A stretch of 64,000 nt of DNA from Streptomyces hygroscopicus (GTDB lineage: Bacteria > Actinomycetota > Actinomycetes > Streptomycetales > Streptomycetaceae): positions 6,386,001 to 6,450,000 of the forward strand of contig CP018627.1 in the NCBI GenBank assembly GCA_002021875.1, given 5' to 3'. The notes beneath the pieces were generated by a model, which saw only the letters and a program-made list of their open reading frames with translations, was not told the origin of the DNA and ran no database searches. Positions 27,126 through 52,112 of the stretch are shown here, piece after piece; the first letter of the stretch is position 1; each line of letters begins with the position of its first letter. Made by a program: the position numbers and the translations under genes.

Positions 27126-27169
27126 GAGCCGCCTAAGGGAATCGAACCCTTGACCTACGCATTACGAGT
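27126..27169 (-). repeat. attL: 44-bp copy of tRNA-Thr 3' end
   Basis: Identical over 44 bp to 52038-52081, covering the acceptor 3' strand, T-arm, variable loop and 3' half of the anticodon arm. The sequence diverges right after, so this is a tRNA fragment and not a working gene. Such 3'-end duplication is the mark of tyrosine-recombinase insertion. Confidence 0.93.
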
Positions 27170-27571: not shown

Positions 27572-30500
27572 GTGACGGACTACACCTTCCAGGCGATAGG
27601 GGCCGGATCCGTCGCCGCCCATCACATCGGGACAGCGATCACCGGCCAGGTCAACGTTCTGACGGCCGAGTTGCTGAACTCGGCGCGCGATGTCCAGGCA
27701 CCTTCCGGACTCACCAACGTGCCGCCGCTCCCCCTGTGTTTCGGCCGCACGAGCGAGCTGGGCTGGCTGCGCGGCACGCTCGGGCAGCCGGCCGCCGGGA
27801 CTGCCGTCGTCCAAGGCCTCGGCGGCGTGGGAAAGAGCACCCTCGCGCTTGCATATGCCCACAGACACCGTCGCGACTACACCGTGATGTGGTGGATTGC
27901 CGCCGCATCACCCGACCACATCGAGCAATCGCTGGCCGACCTCGCTCTGCGACTGATCCCCGTGTGGGCCGGCAGCACGTCTATCGAAGAACGCGCCGCC
28001 TGGGCGATGTCGTGGCTACAGTGGCATCCGGGGTGGCTGCTGATCTTCGACAACGTTGAGGATCCGGCCGATCTGCAGCCCTACGTCAGCACGTCTAACG
28101 GCCACGTCATCGCTACCAGCCGACGATCAGCTAGCTGGCCGACCTCCGTCGCAACGCTGGCCCTCGACGTACTCGACCTGGCTGCAGCGAGTGAACTCCT
28201 CTGTAGCCAGGTGCTCGGCACGACTTCGCCGACCCACCGTCAGATACAGGAGACCCGGGCCCTCTCGGCCGACCTGGGGCAGCTTCCCATCGCCCTGATG
28301 CAGGCTGGCGCCTACCTCGCGCAGAACCCAACGATCAGCATCGAACGTTACCGCCGAAGGCTGATAGGCGCGTTGGACAAGGCTCCCGAAGGTGTAGACC
28401 CTGAGCGCACCGTCGCCCGGATCTGGCGCCAGACGATTAGCACCCTCACGGAGCGCAGCCCTCTGGCAGTCCGGGTCCTGTCCACACTGGCGTGGCTAGC
28501 CCCCGACGACATCCCAGTTGAGTTGCTGACCCCTATCACCGACGACAGCGATGACCTTCACGAAGCCCTTGGGGTGCTTGCTGTCTACTGCATGGTCTCC
28601 CTCACTCAGGACTCGGTGAGCATCCACCGCCTCGTCCAGACCACGCTCCGGAACCAGCCGCCCATCGGTGACAGCGCGCCAACCGGCAGGCTAGAGGCCG
28701 AACGGCTGCTGAGCGCTGCGGTCGCCCCCCTGGGAGAACCGCCCGACTCTGGCCGGTCCCCCGCCTGGGATCGGCTGCTCCCGCACCTCGTCGCGCTCGC
28801 TGCCACTACTCCTGACGGGCACGCTGACACCTTTCCCGCCGGACGGTACGCGAGCGCTGCACTCTATCTCCAGGGCCTCGGTCATGACGCACGCGCCGTT
28901 CCACTGCTCACGGCGGCCCTCGCCCGCTGCGAAGCGCTCGCTGGCGCCGAGCACGAAATCACCATGAAGGTCCGTTCGAACCTGGGCGACGCCTACTACG
29001 GAGCCGGGGACTTCGAACGGTCCATCGCCATCCTCGAACCGTTGGTCGCCCAGTGCGCGCAGGTACTCGGCGACTCGCATCCGGGGACGCTCACCGTCGC
29101 CGCTAACCTTGCCAACTCGTACCGTGACTCCGGCGATCTGGCCCGTGCCATCACACTCCACGAGGAGACGTTGGCCCGGCGTAGGCACGCACTTGGCAAC
29201 GATCACCCCGACACTCTCGTCAGCTGCGAGGAACTGGCCCGCACCTACCATGCGTCCGGCGACTTGGATCGTGCTGTCTCTCTGCATGAGGCCACACTCA
29301 CGCAGTACCAGCGACTCCTAGGACCAACTCACCCTGCCACGCTGTCCAGCCAGCACGGTCTAGCAGCGGTCTACCTCGCTTCAGGCGACCTGTCCCGCGC
29401 CATTCCGATGTACACCGCCGTCTTCGCACAACGGCAGCAGGCGCTCGGCGACAGCGATCCCGAGACCATCACCAGCCGGAACAACCTTGCCTACGCCTAT
29501 CTGACCGCCGGACGCCCTGACCAGGCAGCGCAGCACCTCAAGACGGCCCTGGCCCGGTGCGAGGAGGTGTACGGCGAGACGCACCCAGAGACCATTGCCG
29601 TCCGTGCGAACCTCGGCTGTGCCTACCGGGACGCTGGAGACTCCACCCGTTCGCTTCCATTGCTGGAGACCGCGGCCGCGCAGAGCGCCCACCTTCTCGG
29701 CGATGCCCACCCCCAGACCCTGACCACCAGGAACGGACTGGCGCGGGCATACCAGGCCGCCGGCCACGATGGACGGGCGATCGCCCAGTACGACACCATC
29801 CTCAAGCACCGTGCCGCGCTGCTCGGCGAGACCCACCCCCATACCATCGCCACTCGAAGCGGCCTCGCGAATGCACACCTCGCGGCGGGCGACCCTGATC
29901 GCGCCGTCCCGCTGTTCGAAACAGTCGTCGCCCAGTGCGAGCAGGTCTTCGGCGAGTCACACCCGGACACCCTGTCCAACTACATCGGCCTGGCCGACGC
30001 ACTACGCCAGACGGACAATCCGGCACGGGCCGTGCCCCTCTCGGAGTCAACGCTGGAGCGGTGCGTCCGTTCGCTCGGCGAGGACCACCCGCACACCATG
30101 GTGTGTCGGAGCAACCTGGCCCTCGCACACCTCACAGTTGGCGACGCTCCGCGCGCCGTCCAGCTCCTCGAAGGCGCCGTGTGCAACGCCAGCCTCATCT
30201 TCGGCGACACACACCCGCACACGGTCACCAGCCGGATAAACCTGGCCGCCGCTCACATGGAGTCCGACAACGCGGCACAGGCAGTCGCCGTCCTGGAGGA
30301 CGTCCGCGCCCAGCTGGAGGCCGAACTCGGCCGGGTCCACCCGCAAACACTTCACTGCACCGCCATGCTGGCCCGCGCCCTCGGCGGGTCCGGCGGCCTC
30401 CCCCGGGCGACCGAACTGCTGGAACACAGCGTTGCGCTCGCCGAGAAGGAACTCGGCGTCACCCACCCGAACACAGTCAAGCAACGGCAGTACCTGGCTG

Positions 30501-30784
30501 AGATCTACCGGGCCAACGACCAACCCGACTTGGCTGTGCCGCTGTACGAAGCCAACCTCACCCACTGGCAGCAGACCCTCGGCGACCACCCCAACGTCCT
30601 GAACGCCCAACTCACCCTGGCGGACACCCACCGGGAAGCCGGTGCACACCAAAAGGCGATCGCCGTCTATCGCGTAGCCCTCGGCCGGATCGAGCCCACC
30701 CTGGGCCCGGAGAACCCGCTCGTCGCACAGATCCGCGCGAGGATCGACGCAGCCGAGTACGCCGCTTCGAGGTCTGACCTTTAG
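27572..30784 (+). CDS. STAND-class NB-ARC ATPase with about 14 TPRs
   Basis: A 1070-residue protein built like bacterial NLRs. Residues 13-25 (SVAAHHIGTAITG) match 10 of 13 residues near the C-terminus of the small protein encoded at 30995. Then NB-ARC: Walker A GLGGVGKST (82-90), Walker B WLLIFDN (155-161), HVIATSR and a GLPLAL-like QLPIALMQAGAYLA, followed by a winged helix. From about residue 450 to the end run about 14 repeats of 42 residues (LGDSHPGTLTVAANLANSYR-type), kinesin-light-chain-like TPRs. No toxin domain is fused, so any effector must be separate. STAND ATPases of this class sense ligands through the repeats and oligomerise. It is cargo at the left end of the AICE; defence is likely but inferred. 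GTG 27572 has only a weak ribosome site. Confidence 0.85.
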   Translation: MTDYTFQAIGAGSVAAHHIGTAITGQVNVLTAELLNSARDVQAPSGLTNVPPLPLCFGRTSELGWLRGTLGQPAAGTAVVQGLGGVGKSTLALAYAHRHRRDYTVMWWIAAASPDHIEQSLADLALRLIPVWAGSTSIEERAAWAMSWLQWHPGWLLIFDNVEDPADLQPYVSTSNGHVIATSRRSASWPTSVATLALDVLDLAAASELLCSQVLGTTSPTHRQIQETRALSADLGQLPIALMQAGAYLAQNPTISIERYRRRLIGALDKAPEGVDPERTVARIWRQTISTLTERSPLAVRVLSTLAWLAPDDIPVELLTPITDDSDDLHEALGVLAVYCMVSLTQDSVSIHRLVQTTLRNQPPIGDSAPTGRLEAERLLSAAVAPLGEPPDSGRSPAWDRLLPHLVALAATTPDGHADTFPAGRYASAALYLQGLGHDARAVPLLTAALARCEALAGAEHEITMKVRSNLGDAYYGAGDFERSIAILEPLVAQCAQVLGDSHPGTLTVAANLANSYRDSGDLARAITLHEETLARRRHALGNDHPDTLVSCEELARTYHASGDLDRAVSLHEATLTQYQRLLGPTHPATLSSQHGLAAVYLASGDLSRAIPMYTAVFAQRQQALGDSDPETITSRNNLAYAYLTAGRPDQAAQHLKTALARCEEVYGETHPETIAVRANLGCAYRDAGDSTRSLPLLETAAAQSAHLLGDAHPQTLTTRNGLARAYQAAGHDGRAIAQYDTILKHRAALLGETHPHTIATRSGLANAHLAAGDPDRAVPLFETVVAQCEQVFGESHPDTLSNYIGLADALRQTDNPARAVPLSESTLERCVRSLGEDHPHTMVCRSNLALAHLTVGDAPRAVQLLEGAVCNASLIFGDTHPHTVTSRINLAAAHMESDNAAQAVAVLEDVRAQLEAELGRVHPQTLHCTAMLARALGGSGGLPRATELLEHSVALAEKELGVTHPNTVKQRQYLAEIYRANDQPDLAVPLYEANLTHWQQTLGDHPNVLNAQLTLADTHREAGAHQKAIAVYRVALGRIEPTLGPENPLVAQIRARIDAAEYAASRSDL

Positions 30785-30994
30785 TACTCCATTGAAGCTC
30801 TCCGTTTCCCTGGTCAGCGATCTGCCAGTCGGGAGCGTAGCCAGGCGGCGCCAGGGGCGGGAAGGTGTTCGCTGGCCAGCGTGGAGTAAGACCGGTCGAC
30901 GTTCCGCGAATGCAGAGTTGCCGCGTGCACGCTGGCTGGGCGGCTTAATCTGGTGCCCTGGCGTCAGTCATTGACAGGATTTCGGGGGTGGGTT

Positions 30995-31411
30995 GTGGGA
31001 GCGGAGATCGTGCAGTTTCTGGAGCAGGCAGGGCCGTATCTAAGCGCGGCTCTGGGTACCTATGGTGCGGGGGTACTTGCCCGAGCTGAGGACGCTGCGG
31101 TGGGAGCCACGGCGAATGCAGGGCGCAGCATCTTGCACGCGGTCTGGCGGCGCCGGAGCCCGGCCGGACGGCCCGAGCTGGAGGCGGCGGTGCGTGAGGC
31201 GGCCGAGGAGCCGGAGGACGCCGATGCTGCAGCCGCGCTACGTCAGCAGATCAAGCGGACGCTGAGGGAGAATCCGCAGTTGCTTGCCGAACTGGCCGCC
31301 CAGCTTCCCCCGACCGGTGCGGTGACGATCACCGCGTCCGGTGAACGGTCTATCGCCGCACACACAATCGGCACGGCCGTCACCGGAGACAACACAACGA
31401 TCCGTCCATGA
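30995..31411 (+). CDS. Small adaptor-like protein sharing a motif with the NB-ARC ATPase
   Basis: A 138-residue protein. An N-terminal helix (GAEIVQFLEQAGPYLSAALGTYGAG) resembles a membrane-seeking or packing helix; an amphipathic helical middle (about 25-102, rich in Ala and Glu) follows; then TGAVTITASGERSIAAHTIGTAVTGDN. The stretch S119-G131 matches residues 13-25 of the NB-ARC protein. The same small-protein type is often found beside NB-ARC or TPR genes in actinomycetes, as far as I recall. A shared motif suggests a homotypic contact, so this may be the effector or adaptor of the STAND ATPase. GGGGTGG lies just before GTG 30995. Confidence 0.65.
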   Translation: MGAEIVQFLEQAGPYLSAALGTYGAGVLARAEDAAVGATANAGRSILHAVWRRRSPAGRPELEAAVREAAEEPEDADAAAALRQQIKRTLRENPQLLAELAAQLPPTGAVTITASGERSIAAHTIGTAVTGDNTTIRP

Positions 31412-31683: not shown

Positions 31684-33696
31684 CTATTCACCGTCGTTTC
31701 GTTCCGGCGTCGTGTAATCGACATCCTGAGAGCCCACACCCTCACGTCGTCGTTGTACACCTCTATAAGCTCCACTTTCGAGGACTTCGCGGGTTCGCGC
31801 TACCTCCTGTTCCTTCCTGCCGAAGTGAGTGTTTTGCACGTCGCCTTCAAGGATGGCTCGGTAGTGCTCGTAGTATGTGCGTGCCCTTGACTGGATGCCC
31901 CGCCAAGTGAGGAGCTCGCCGTCTTCGCGCTCATCCCACGCTTTCCGAGCTCGGGGGCTGATCTCATAACTGCTGTTGGAAATAAAGGCCATGAAGCCTA
32001 CTTTTTGTGCCACCTCTAGACGGTCGGCGTACTGTTCCAGCTTCTGCGTGTCTTCGAGGGTTACCGAGTGGCCTGATCGCTTAATCTCGATCACGACTAG
32101 TTCGCCGTCTCCGGAAAGAGCAAGGAAATCATACCTACCTTCGTAGGACGGGTCACCGAGATCTTCTCTGCCCCACTCTCGAAGCATGGTAGTGATTCGC
32201 TTTTCCTCCGAAAATACCTGCCACTCCGGGTTGATGAGCCACGGGTAGTCGGCGATTAGATCGTGTAGATTTTCCCTTCCTCTTTCGGGAGCTGTCTCGG
32301 GGGCATCATTGACGATAAGGTCGTAAAACTTATCGATGATGTCCAGTCGACCTCTTACGACCTCAAGCACGGCGCGGCTCTCAAGGAGCTTCCAGTCGTG
32401 CATGTACTCGACGGCTTGCTGGAATGTCTCGGGGTCGGCCGCCGCGACGTCCAGCTCTGTTATGAAGTCATGGAACTGCCTGTACTCAAATGCTCGCAGA
32501 ATCGTGTCGGCTAGAGGGTTCACTCTGTCGTTCTCGGTGCCCGCCTTTCCGAGTAGGATCAAGAACTTGTCCACTTGGTTTGCTGACTGGCGGTCAAGAC
32601 GGCCGATCCTGTCTGCGAACTCCCTGTTCTCGCGGACCTCCTTCTTGACTTTCTCCCCTCGCTGCTCGGTTCGTTCCCTCAGGAGGCGTCGAGTTAGCGC
32701 ATCACCCCATGACTTCAATGGTGCCGCAAGCTCATCCTCCCAGTCGATTTCTTGCCTGTCTGTCGAAACTCGATCACTGGCATCGTCGGATTCCGCGTCC
32801 AGATAGTCAGCTTCGATGACTCCGGTGAGGTATTTAGTCCCATGCTGTCCGCTCGCGGTGCCCTCGACGTCAAAGAAGTACGGAGGAGCTTGAGCTGTCT
32901 TCCCGTTAACAATTACCGTGAAGCCTTGCAATTCTTTCGGCAGAACGGTGTTGCTGAAGCCGGCCCACCACTTGATGGTCTGCCCGGGGGCGATCTCAAC
33001 GGTTTCCTCGCCAGACTCTGGTTCGCGCATATCGAAATCGATCTTAGTGTCAAATACTTTTTCCCCATTGAGATAGATTTCCATCTCCCCGCGCACTCTC
33101 GTGCTGAATCTGCGGGCGAGCGCGCGGTTCAGGCCCTCAATGTTTACCGAGGTCTTGTGCTTAAGGCTTTGCATGATGATGCGAGTGCCACTTGGGTGCG
33201 GAAGCGGTGCGTTGACCGGCTCGATGAAACCGCGAATGGCTACCCGCTCAGCGTGATCTGAGTCCGTCTTTAGGTTGTCTGAGTCAAGAGTGAGCGTGCA
33301 AGAGCGACCTTCACGCCAGGTGACGACAGTCATGTTTCGGGCGAGTCCGAAACCGGCCAGCTTCCCAACGCCTTTTCTTCCCATTACGAGGCGCCCATTG
33401 CTTGTGGGTTGTCCGGCCGATCGCCGATTCCTGCCGATCACCAAGTAGTTGCGCTCGACTTCGTCGTCGTCCATGCCGGCGCCATTGTCTGTCACCGTGA
33501 GAACACTGGTCCGCGAGTTGTATTCATGCTCGGGTGGAACACTGATGTCGACGCGGGTGGCACCTGCATCCCAACAATTGGCCACCAGCTCAGCGATAGC
33601 GACGTCGCGCCGCTTGTACATCTGTGTACCGAGGTGTTCCAGTGTCCGGCCCAGGACCGTGATTTTGAAGTCTCGCACGCGCTTCTCAGCAGACAT
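31684..33696 (-). CDS. GHKL ATPase fused to PD-(D/E)XK nuclease domain (MORC-like)
   Basis: A 670-residue two-domain enzyme. The N-terminal Bergerat-fold ATPase shows ELVANCWDAGA (36-46), TDNGAGM (69-75) and GRKGVGKLAGFGL (106-118), then an S5-like transducer region. A helical middle leads to a C-terminal restriction-like core: Asp in RYDFLAL (D523), Glu and Lys in VIEIKRSG (E537, K539). This pairing resembles prokaryotic MORC/MutL-like ATPases found in restriction and conflict systems. A DNA clamp that cuts after ATP-driven closure is a fair guess. GC content is clearly lower than the rest of the element, a sign of separate acquisition. Starts ATG 33696 or GTG 33702; neither has a good ribosome site. 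Strand is opposite to the NB-ARC gene. Confidence 0.82.
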   Translation of the reverse strand: MSAEKRVRDFKITVLGRTLEHLGTQMYKRRDVAIAELVANCWDAGATRVDISVPPEHEYNSRTSVLTVTDNGAGMDDDEVERNYLVIGRNRRSAGQPTSNGRLVMGRKGVGKLAGFGLARNMTVVTWREGRSCTLTLDSDNLKTDSDHAERVAIRGFIEPVNAPLPHPSGTRIIMQSLKHKTSVNIEGLNRALARRFSTRVRGEMEIYLNGEKVFDTKIDFDMREPESGEETVEIAPGQTIKWWAGFSNTVLPKELQGFTVIVNGKTAQAPPYFFDVEGTASGQHGTKYLTGVIEADYLDAESDDASDRVSTDRQEIDWEDELAAPLKSWGDALTRRLLRERTEQRGEKVKKEVRENREFADRIGRLDRQSANQVDKFLILLGKAGTENDRVNPLADTILRAFEYRQFHDFITELDVAAADPETFQQAVEYMHDWKLLESRAVLEVVRGRLDIIDKFYDLIVNDAPETAPERGRENLHDLIADYPWLINPEWQVFSEEKRITTMLREWGREDLGDPSYEGRYDFLALSGDGELVVIEIKRSGHSVTLEDTQKLEQYADRLEVAQKVGFMAFISNSSYEISPRARKAWDEREDGELLTWRGIQSRARTYYEHYRAILEGDVQNTHFGRKEQEVARTREVLESGAYRGVQRRREGVGSQDVDYTTPERNDGE

Positions 33697-33851
33697 AGCC
33701 ACACTTTAGGTGGCAGCAGCACCGAGCGCGGGGTTTTCCCTGATTCCACATGGCCCAGTCGAGACCGGAACTGAGACCGCGACGGCGTGCGAAGCTGGGT
33801 GGGGACACCCCCCGCGAGGGTGTCCCCAAGCAGCCACACGAAGGAGGTCAC

Positions 33852-37539: not shown

Positions 37540-37823
37540 TCCGGTTGGTGACAAGCCGCCGGCTGCGGGCTCTGAGCGTGCAGTGCGAGCAGGCGCAGGC
37601 CCGTGCACGGGAAGTGCAGGAGAAGGCTGATCGGGCGTACTCCGGCTATATCCGCAAGCTCTACGACCTGACCGCGCGGGCCGAAGAGGCTGAGAGCGAC
37701 GCCGCGATCATCCGCGAGGAAGCCGAACAGCTCACGGCCGCTCTGGACGCAGCCATGGCAGAACTGGAGGCGGCCCGCCAACAGCTCGCCAGCCCGGCCC
37801 CCGCGCGGGAGGTGGGAGCGTGA
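37536..37823 (+). CDS. Small coiled-coil protein
   Basis: A 95-residue protein that is nearly all one long coiled coil (about 12-85: CEQAQARAREVQEKADRA to AMAELEAARQQLA). GTG 37536 overlaps the previous stop. It could bridge membrane spread proteins. No family recognised. Confidence 0.6.
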   Translation: MIRLVTSRRLRALSVQCEQAQARAREVQEKADRAYSGYIRKLYDLTARAEEAESDAAIIREEAEQLTAALDAAMAELEAARQQLASPAPAREVGA

Positions 37824-38275
37824 GCACCCTGGACGCCAGCCTTGCCGCCGCGCATGCGGAGGTGAAGGCGGAGATCGGCAGGACCGACACCAAGACCGGG
37901 CTGCTGCTGGCGTTCGTCGGCGCTGTGCTGGCCGGTGTGTGGACCGTCGCCAGCGGCGTGCGCCTTCCCGCCGCTGCCTATGTGGCCGGCGGTATGGGTG
38001 TGGCTGTGCTGGTCGCTGCCGCGGCGCTGCTGCTGCGGGCGGTCCGGCCGAACCTGGGCGGCGCCAACCCGATGGGCTTCCCGCTGTGGGCGACGCTCAC
38101 GGCCGAGGAGATCCGGGCCGAGCGCGCTGAGGACCGGCGCGAGCAGGACATCGCGAACCTCTCGCGGATCGCGGTCGCCAAGTTCGCCAACCTGCGACGC
38201 GCGGTCGATCTGACTTGCGCGGGCGGTGTGCTGCTGATCGTGGCCGCCGGTATCGCCGTGGGGGGTGCGCTGTGA
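37820..38275 (+). CDS. Four-helix membrane protein of the PycTM-like (DUF5706) type
   Basis: A 151-residue membrane protein. It starts with an amphipathic helix ending RTDTKTGLLLAFVGAVLAG, a pattern of the PycTM effector family of Pycsar defence systems, with two helices (about 28-70), an acidic cytoplasmic helix and a last hydrophobic hairpin (about 125-151). No cyclic-nucleotide synthase lies nearby, and the gene is embedded in the spread operon by GTGA overlaps on both sides. It is therefore more likely a spread (Spd) protein that shares the fold, though an abortive-infection role cannot be excluded. Confidence 0.62.
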   Translation: MSTLDASLAAAHAEVKAEIGRTDTKTGLLLAFVGAVLAGVWTVASGVRLPAAAYVAGGMGVAVLVAAAALLLRAVRPNLGGANPMGFPLWATLTAEEIRAERAEDRREQDIANLSRIAVAKFANLRRAVDLTCAGGVLLIVAAGIAVGGAL

Positions 38276-49301: not shown

Positions 49302-49499
49302 ATGAGCACCGCTACGGCGATAGTCGAGCCCCTTCTCTACACCCCTGAGGAAGCAGCGGAAGCGCTCCGCATGGGGCGCTCCACCATCTACGAGTTGATG
49401 GCCGACGGGACGCTGAAGTTCGTCAAGCGCGGACGGTCACGGCGGATACGCGTGACCGACCTCGAAACCTACGTGGCGAGTCTCGCCACCTCCAACTGA
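49302..49499 (+). CDS. xis: Excisionase-type HTH protein
   Basis: A 65-residue MerR/AlpA-like winged helix: LLYTPEEAAEALRMGRSTIYELMADG, then KFVKRGRSRRIRVTDLETYV. Small proteins like this next to the integrase direct excision. GGAGGAG upstream supports ATG 49302. It lies 59 bp before the integrase gene. Confidence 0.85.
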   Translation: MSTATAIVEPLLYTPEEAAEALRMGRSTIYELMADGTLKFVKRGRSRRIRVTDLETYVASLATSN

Positions 49500-49558
49500 A
49501 CATTGCTCAACCGAGGTGGGCCGGTGCATCCGGCCCACCTCCCGCTTTGGAGGACTAC

Positions 49559-50941
49559 TTGAGCCCCCGCAAGCTGAACATGGAGTCGTCCATCTACCTG
49601 GGGAATGACGGCCGGTGGCACGGCCGCGTCACCATGGGCGTGAAGAACGACGGAAGCCCGGACCGCCGCCACCGCCAAGCCAAGACTGAGCCAGCCGTAC
49701 GCCGGAAGGTCAAGGAGCTGGAGAAGCTGCGGGACGAGGGGCGCGCGCCCGTCGCCGGGCGGAAGCCGACCGTGGCCGAGTGGATGACTACGTACCTGAC
49801 CACGATCGCGAGCTTGAAGCTCAAGCCCCGCTCGCTGGATGACTACTGGTCGAAGACCCGGAACGACATCATCCCGGGCCTCGGTCAGCACCGTCTGGAC
49901 AAGCTGGCGCCGGAGCACTTGGAGACGCTGTACGCGGCCATGCTCGAAGAGGGCCACGCGCCCTCTCACGTGCTCAAGGTGCACCGCATCCTGTCGCGGG
50001 CGCTGAAGATCGCCCATCGGCGCCGGATCATCGTGGAGAACGTCGCGACTCTCGTGGACCCGCCGAGCGTCGATGAGACCGAGGCGAACCCGTTCACTAC
50101 CGAGGAGGCCAAGGGGTTTCTGGAGGCCGCGGCCAAGCGGCCGAACTTCATGCGGTGGGCGGTCGGTGTCGGGATGGGGTTCCGACAAGGGGAGACGCTG
50201 GGCCTTCGGTGGCGGTACGTCGACCTGGAGAACGAGCTGTTCCACCCCAGATGGCAGCTCCAGCGCCTCACCTGGCGCCACGGCTGCAAGGACCCGCACG
50301 CCTGCGGCGCCCGGCTGCACCGCTTCGAGCCGTGCCCGCCGGACTGCGCGACGCACAAGACCTACAAGCGCGGATGCCCCGAGCCTTGTTCGAAGATGTG
50401 CAACGCGCACGCGAGCGCGTGTCCCGAACGGAAAGGCGGCGGGCTCGTCTTCACCCGGCCCAAGACGAAGAAGAGCCAGAACCCCGTGCCCATCCCGCCG
50501 CCGTTCATTCCGTACCTGCTCGCGCACAAGGCCCAGCAGGAGGACATGCGCACCGCCGCTGGCGACGAGTGGGAGGAGCACGACGCCGTGTTCGCGCGGC
50601 CGGACGGACGGCCGCTCGACCCCCGCGCCGACTGGGAGGAGTTCAAGGAGCTGCTGGAGGAAGCGGGCATCAGCGACCGCCGCCTGTACGACGGCAGCCG
50701 CCACACCGCAGGCACGATCCTGAACGAGCTGGGCGTGGACATGCCCACCATCATGGAGATCCTGCGGCACACCCAGATCAGCCAGACGCGGCGGTACGTG
50801 AAGGGCAGATCTCACTTGTCAAAGGACGCGATGCGGCGCATGGGCGAGTTCTTCGTACCCCCATCCGAGAACCCCGCTGCGATCAAGACTGATCCCGTCG
50901 GCACTCGCGCTGCCCGCTCACGTCGCCGACGCATACGTTGA
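49559..50941 (+). CDS. int: Tyrosine recombinase integrase with Cys-rich insert
   Basis: A 460-residue site-specific recombinase. N-terminal arm-binding part (1-70), core-binding SAM-like domain (71-165) and catalytic domain with Arg in GMGFRQGETLGL (R209), SRHTAGT (R381), RHTQ (H404) and the nucleophile Tyr in RRYVKG (Y413). A Cys cluster at 243-288 (HGCKDPHACG...CPEPCSKMC...CPERKGGG) is a zinc-like insert typical of AICE integrases. The usual His of HxxR is replaced (DGSR). TTG 49559 follows GGAGG by about 5 nt. It acts on the att core in tRNA-Thr(CGT). Confidence 0.9.
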   Translation: MSPRKLNMESSIYLGNDGRWHGRVTMGVKNDGSPDRRHRQAKTEPAVRRKVKELEKLRDEGRAPVAGRKPTVAEWMTTYLTTIASLKLKPRSLDDYWSKTRNDIIPGLGQHRLDKLAPEHLETLYAAMLEEGHAPSHVLKVHRILSRALKIAHRRRIIVENVATLVDPPSVDETEANPFTTEEAKGFLEAAAKRPNFMRWAVGVGMGFRQGETLGLRWRYVDLENELFHPRWQLQRLTWRHGCKDPHACGARLHRFEPCPPDCATHKTYKRGCPEPCSKMCNAHASACPERKGGGLVFTRPKTKKSQNPVPIPPPFIPYLLAHKAQQEDMRTAAGDEWEEHDAVFARPDGRPLDPRADWEEFKELLEEAGISDRRLYDGSRHTAGTILNELGVDMPTIMEILRHTQISQTRRYVKGRSHLSKDAMRRMGEFFVPPSENPAAIKTDPVGTRAARSRRRRIR

Positions 50942-52035: not shown

Positions 52036-52112
52036 TGGAGCCGCCTAAGGGAATCGAACCCTTGACCTACGCATTACGAGTGCGTCGCTCTGGCCGACTG
52101 AGCTAAGGCGGC
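52036..52112 (-). tRNA. tRNA-Thr (anticodon CGT), CCA encoded
   Basis: Read leftward: acceptor GCCGCCT pairs with AGGCGGC, D-arm, anticodon stem ACGCA/TGCGT with loop CTCGTAA (anticodon CGT, decodes ACG), T-arm GGGTTCGATTCCC and encoded CCA at 52036-52038. It is intact because the element carries the 3' end of the gene. Confidence 0.95.
52038..52081 (-). repeat. attR: tRNA-Thr 3' end
   Basis: Same 44 bp as 27126-27169. It lies inside the intact tRNA, about 1.1 kb from the integrase stop. Confidence 0.93.

Follow-up and report, generated by a model that had tools for sequence, protein, structure and literature searches.

A putative two-gene NLR module of Streptomyces hygroscopicus in which the sensor and the candidate effector carry matching BASS-type motifs

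How does a bacterial NOD-like receptor (NLR) with no effector of its own reach the protein that acts for it? The question is raised by two adjacent genes, coding for an NLR-like sensor ATPase and a small partner, in a 64,000-nt stretch of Streptomyces hygroscopicus contig CP018627.1 (hereafter the window, whose numbering all open reading frames (ORFs) and coordinates follow). Comparing sequences, we found that the two genes carry matched motifs, that the motif is rare and the pairing recurrent, and that in two distant pairs the motif differs from the usual form on both sides. We consider it likely that the pair is a two-gene NLR signalling module working as proposed for bacterial amyloid signalling sequence (BASS) modules, the NLR/Bell two-gene form of which was reportedly described by Dyrka et al. 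in 2020.

ORF listing and translation gave the following features for the pair.

27572..30784, plus strand: NLR-like sensor ATPase, 1070 residues, GTG start at 27572, with motif head, NB-ARC domain and TPR array
27608..27646, plus strand: receptor-side motif SVAAHHIGTAITG, ATPase residues 13-25
27800..28333, plus strand: NB-ARC domain of the ATPase, residues 77-254, P-loop GLGGVGKST
30995..31411, plus strand: effector candidate (the small partner), 138 residues, GTG start at 30995
31349..31387, plus strand: effector-side motif SIAAHTIGTAVTG, partner residues 119-131

An earlier reading of this DNA (the sequence-only reading) had given these ORFs, their coordinates and lengths and the 210-bp gap between them correctly; the ATPase gene comes first, and the longest possible ORF of the partner starts at 30953 and encodes 152 residues. 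In Pfam, the ATPase matched NB-ARC at 28.1 bits (cut-off 23.5), TPR_12 in 12 stretches and TPR_10 in 13 stretches, and with both NB-ARC and TPR above the Pfam cut-offs it has the NTPase-with-repeats build of a BASS-type sensor; in NCBIfam it matched NF040586 (FxSxx_TPR) at 625.5 bits (cut-off 300). About 45 residues lie upstream of the NTPase region, which upholds the earlier statement that no effector is fused to the ATPase. The partner matched no family above cut-off in Pfam, NCBIfam or PADLOC, and a search of solved structures returned no convincing homologue for it (best E 0.058, to a chain named TNFR2_mb1, positions 59-120). It has 332 homologues at E<=10, and a wider protein search with a 72-row alignment scored 8000 candidates and recovered 357 proteins at E<=0.001, with no Pfam domain in any of the 120 among the matches listed. 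Phage records yielded no match; plasmid records yielded 2 matches, both from Streptomyces and one annotated as a TPR protein.

What links the two proteins is a short stretch at opposite ends. SVAAHHIGTAITG and SIAAHTIGTAVTG form the best ungapped 13-mer between them, with 10 of 13 residues identical, at the positions and with the identity first reported. When both proteins were shuffled 1000 times, the highest identity between 13-mers came out at 6 (202 times), 7 (673), 8 (121) or 9 (4) and never at 10, and a chance match was rejected on that ground. The match runs between the C-terminus of the partner and the N-terminus of the ATPase, and the shared element, some 20 residues long, is a motif rather than a domain. 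From the original suggestion of matching N-terminal domains we keep the short match and replace the N-to-N domain contact: a motif common to an effector C-terminus and an NLR N-terminus is the arrangement of BASS-type modules, and we prefer to read the contact as a BASS-type (amyloid-like) motif running from effector tail to NLR head. In each of the 120 partner homologues among the matches listed (of 332), the C-terminal 40 residues include the motif pattern.

The motif is rare. A profile built from 13 motif copies, the window's two sequences among them, found two places at E<=0.05 in the strain's own 12-Mb genome, namely the partner tail (2.2e-14) and the ATPase head (1.8e-10); because both are rows of the profile, the informative outcome is that the profile matched nowhere else. 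Across 101 genomes the profile found 24 places at E<=0.05, several of the weaker ones looking like chance. At E<1e-4 there were 13, of which ten make up five adjacent effector/NLR pairs and three are two P-loop proteins (L174 and L175) and a tandem-motif protein (L172). The idea that the motif sits in many unrelated proteins without an NB-ARC neighbour thus finds little in these genomes, and a role as a common decoration of unrelated proteins appears weakened.

The pairing recurs. A same-genus search matched in 47 of 295 genomes and a class-wide search in 14 of 296. We examined 43 fetched loci (set A) and 30 loci from the same-genus search with the window included (set B, which shares some contigs with set A), and scored a pair where a P-loop ORF, recognized by a regular expression, lay at most 300 bp from the effector; at L049 and L051 the frame of the effector was assigned manually. 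Such an ORF was present in 33 of 43 loci in set A and, leaving out the window, in 19 of 29 in set B, and at L018 an NPHP3_N/NACHT-type NLR with the motif, missed by the expression, also adjoins the effector. As a scale for these counts, the strain's own genome has 25 NB-ARC matches, 24 of them above cut-off. The two genes do co-occur, and the BASS-type adjacency of an NLR gene and a small effector gene is present in the window and in the same 33 loci. Among 52 pairs found by the expression, the effector gene comes first in 47, the NLR gene in 4 and the genes lie on opposite strands in 1; the four NLR-first loci (L009-L012) are the nearest relatives of the window pair, which has the same order.

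Do heads and tails match as cognate pairs? From 73 fetched loci (L009-L081) we dropped 20 with no P-loop ORF within 300 bp, together with L054, which is the window itself; the resulting 52 loci plus the window made 53 pairs, or 47 once 6 near-duplicates were removed. The NLR head outscored every 65-residue segment downstream of its own P-loop in all non-redundant pairs (47 of 47; mean 63.4 versus a mean best downstream score of 28.2). Non-cognate heads averaged 52.7, and 0 of 20000 permutations, phylogeny being uncontrolled, reached the cognate mean. A second comparison used a matrix of eleven chosen pairs with 1000 shuffles each, in which 9 of 11 cognate scores beat the shuffles; the motif of the two that failed (L088 and L089) is found by profile (E 1e-3 and 5e-4), and their failure is put down to a head segment cut at a misplaced P-loop.

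Replacement of the motif on both sides is, to our mind, sharper evidence than these scores. In two distant pairs, L168 and L169, both from another family of the same class, the motif appears to have changed on both sides together: L168 has QQGDN in head and tail where most listed pairs have TGD, and L169 has DHxQQxNLGQGTMxV in both. With its own NLR the L169 tail reaches a score of 74, and with ten others no more than 31; by its body, the L169 effector is still a member of the effector family (E 4.4e-25, model positions 1-125).

The effector family adjoins NB-ARC-TPR, NB-ARC-WD40 and NACHT NLRs, all above Pfam cut-offs, as well as an AAA_16-type NLR whose Pfam match is below cut-off. Its domain is also fused directly to TPR-like repeats, at L043:9980-10678, L066:1426-3114 (a record annotated as a TPR protein) and L068:1486-3405, and to pentapeptide repeats in L098; the three TPR-like fusions have no visible P-loop, and in them the motif is gone or decayed. 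It is present on other small proteins: a gene at L173:7406-8209, its product seemingly membrane-spanning by eye, ends in two tandem copies and overlaps a P-loop gene with the motif (L173:8179-11406), and a small protein in L176 that ends in tandem motifs adjoins a P-loop gene with the motif. Because the motif is lost or degraded in direct fusions and present on other small proteins, we read it as a plug for separate sensors and effectors only, a connector that would be needed just where the two are separate proteins.

Both window genes are under purifying selection. Compared with the four relatives L009-L012, ratios of non-synonymous to synonymous change (dN/dS) were 0.08-0.16 for the effector, 0.17-0.26 for the NB-ARC region and 0.31-0.33 for the TPRs, values that suggest a maintained effector and a sensor that changes faster.

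How close does this come to known modules? BASS NLR/Bell modules are described in passages of PMC7889193, PMC12261475, PMC8086366 and PMC9815663, and as far as those passages go the window pair resembles them: an NLR gene adjoins a gene for a small protein, a short motif is common to the NLR N-terminus and the effector C-terminus, the hosts are filamentous actinomycetes, and motif families vary between pairs. The passages of PMC7889193 also mention BASS modules with effectors other than Bell, and a Bell domain with a hydrophobic transmembrane helix; PMC9815663 reports that the BASS3 motif from a protein of Streptomyces atratus forms foci in a fungus. The window pair and L009-L012 differ from BASS/Bell modules in having the NLR gene first, with the 210-bp gap in the window, whereas the other relatives are mostly effector-first as counted above. 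Scans of Pfam, NCBIfam and PADLOC gave no Bell-domain match for the effector, which we do not file as a Bell domain since it lacks a membrane helix. By architecture we class the pair with BASS-type two-gene modules. The general idea of such pairs is already published (in the passages of PMC7889193), and the window pair would add one more example.

For the steps beyond pairing and motif we draw on the BASS proposal, as given in passages of the same four sources, and on general knowledge of STAND ATPases; sensing, oligomerization, templating, effector toxicity and a part in defence are what we infer from them. The TPR array, perhaps with the NB-ARC domain, would sense an invader-linked cue, upon which the NB-ARC ATPase would oligomerize and gather many copies of its N-terminal motif. 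The clustered heads would act as nucleus for an ordered, amyloid-like assembly, which in turn would serve as template for the near-identical motif on the effector C-terminus, and the small, probably helical effector, clustered through its tail, would kill or arrest the cell, an abortive-infection outcome. In its proposed logic this resembles fungal HET-s/HELLP and mammalian RHIM amyloid signalling, where the receptor gathers copies of a short motif and these act as template for its partner. The two-gene immune module put forward by the sequence-only reading is supported in part, by pairing, motif coupling, rarity and purifying selection, with its contact redrawn as a BASS-type motif in place of N-terminal domains. 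The anti-phage STAND systems Avs and bNACHT have an NTPase-plus-repeat sensor architecture like that of the window NLR; their effector domain is mostly fused, whereas the candidate effector here is a separate gene. Within the open literature library and for the terms searched, no experimental paper turned up on such a bacterial NLR/effector pair acting in phage defence.

Several observations weigh against this reading. In set A, 10 of 43 loci have no intact neighbouring P-loop ORF by the regular expression, some of them owing to contig ends or broken frames. Besides L018, these are L024, L038 and L051, with NLR-like stretches alongside and no intact P-loop frame; L043, a fusion cut by the contig end; L049, with only a 51-residue piece of the effector; and L021, L046, L048 and L050, where no NLR neighbour was seen, L021 lying close to a contig end. 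Among 20 further stretches, picked as misses or distant relatives, there are 3 fusions, 6 with a motif-bearing frame alongside, 5 whose P-loop neighbour gave no motif match and 6 with neither. The permutation test leaves shared ancestry in. For 42 of 47 effectors, one or more non-cognate heads outscore the cognate one. In the eleven-pair matrix the cognate head ranks top in only 4 rows and ties in 1, and the window tail, which reaches 63 with its cognate head, gets 78 and 70 with two non-cognate ones; pairs within one motif type are thus not told apart by score. The NLR head, with dN/dS of 0.28-0.75, evolves no slower than the rest of the NLR, so this short stretch appears to be under no special constraint. 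Unlike a Bell domain, the effector has no transmembrane helix by a crude hydropathy test (best 19-residue window 1.06), and by the same test 1 of 72 family members reaches 1.6. Unlike known anti-phage systems in PADLOC, the pair matches only a weak generic TPR model, on the ATPase at 17.3 bits, with nothing for the partner at E<=1. Finally, no motif-bearing partner was found for L174 or L175 in the stretch fetched, nor a motif-bearing NLR within 15 kb of L172.

Some of these points would suit a different kind of coupling, in which the motifs meet one to one as a beta interaction without amyloid and the small protein keeps the NLR inactive, as an inhibitor or regulatory subunit, until sensing releases it. 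The composition of the motif, rich in Gly, Ala, Ser and Thr and not in Gln or Asn, agrees with this, as does an effector without a membrane helix, for which a killing mechanism is not evident. Tandem motif copies in the tails at L172, L173 and L176, however, fit a seeding tag better; small proteins outside the effector family carry the motif beside a motif-bearing P-loop gene (L173 and L176); and loss or degradation of the motif in direct fusions to TPR-like repeats fits a mere connector. We regard a regulatory subunit as unlikely, though worth keeping in mind. Less probable again is that the tail is a lineage signature spread through actinomycete proteins with no signalling role. Many Streptomyces proteins do have similar tails, shared ancestry accounts for part of the cognate matching, and L172, L174 and L175 are the carriers just described without a motif-bearing partner nearby; a mere signature is nevertheless hard to square with so few profile places in 101 genomes, with the concentration of ten of the 13 strongest in five adjacent pairs, and with motifs altered alike on both sides in L168 and L169.

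The NF040586 match raises one more possibility, that the NLR is a component of an FxSxx-COOH ribosomal-peptide system and the small protein is unrelated to it. The likeness extends over the ATPase-TPR body of the window NLR. The strain's own genome, in contrast to what such a system would have, holds no match to the FxSxx-COOH precursor (FxsA) at E<=0.01 and no FxsB radical SAM maturase above cut-off (best 28 of 370 bits), and matching motifs occur also with NACHT and WD40 NLRs. Membership was rejected as largely refuted, and we give this explanation very little credence.

If the window pair is a BASS-type module, is it the only one in its genome? A neighbour scan of the genome's own 25 NB-ARC loci, 21 of them scorable, flagged 3 of 21 (L116, L117 and L122) and missed the window pair (L119) because the effector lay outside the stretch fetched. 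At L116 (C1:5152439 region; also L177), a 159-residue frame ending in ASGSGRVYQAGRDQHITER precedes an NLR with the head ASGQGRVFQTGGDQYIEE; this pair scored 69, versus a maximum of 52 in 300 shuffles, and its shared motif, RVYQAGRDQ / RVFQTGGDQ, is unlike that of the window pair. L116 is convincing as another effector/NLR pair of this genome, one with a tag of its own. L117 and L122 were judged chance, their partner frames lying on the other strand.

Elsewhere, the tail of a frame at L162:76-504 (minus strand) carries two motif types in tandem, GIASTGDNATN and RVYQAGRDQ.

In the strain's own genome, the NLR heads at L114, L118, L121, L122 and L125 (VVQG, VVQA) look RHIM-like by eye, and several motif classes may therefore coexist in one genome. 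Weak effector-profile matches (E 1.3e-6 to 3.9e-5) likewise extend to proteins with tails that seem RHIM-like on visual inspection. It is conceivable, though we hold the idea only tentatively, that a cell of a multicellular actinomycete runs several insulated NLR-to-effector channels, each by its own tag, with bodies and tags exchangeable and with the effector described here soluble, non-pore and activated by clustering. As parts of that same tentative picture, one effector family might take different tags with the NLR side changing to match, and related tags might drive either a soluble or a membrane-type effector. A rare tag that its genome has at two places, another pair there with a tag unlike it (L116) and natural pairs changed on both sides (L168 and L169) make specificity, cross-talk and clustering-driven killing directly testable; the value of the pair lies in this test material for specificity between channels, not in a new kind of system.

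The genomic setting of the pair is an integrative element, with these further features.

27126..27169, plus strand: attL, a 44-bp exact copy of part of tRNA-Thr (equal to 52038-52081), left end of the element
49302..49499, plus strand: HTH_17 protein of the element (PF12728, E 2.1e-15), a putative excisionase
49547..50941, plus strand: tyrosine integrase of the element (PF00589, E 3.5e-16)
52038..52081, plus strand: attR, an exact repeat of attL, inside tRNA-Thr (52036-52112, minus strand)

The two genes are the first sizeable ones inside attL of this 25-kb tRNA-Thr element. They had been placed at the end of a conjugative element. The att repeat, the integrase and the position just inside attL agree with an element's end; its conjugative nature is shown only in part, Pfam and NCBIfam naming no conjugation protein among the element ORFs submitted. 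With L010-L012 the window aligns over the two genes and the sequence directly bordering them and no further, and in L009 a distance of 2.7 kb separates the pair from the same tRNA-Thr, from which we infer that the pair may move as a cassette.

The next gene (31684-33702, minus strand) encodes a GHKL ATPase with similarity to BbrUII/HgiDII-type restriction enzymes over residues 13-216 (228.5 bits, cut-off 550), a possible second defence gene beside the pair. Further along, at 37820-38275 (plus strand), a small protein matches PycTM, a Pycsar effector family (PF18967, E 7e-16; PADLOC 46.5 bits).

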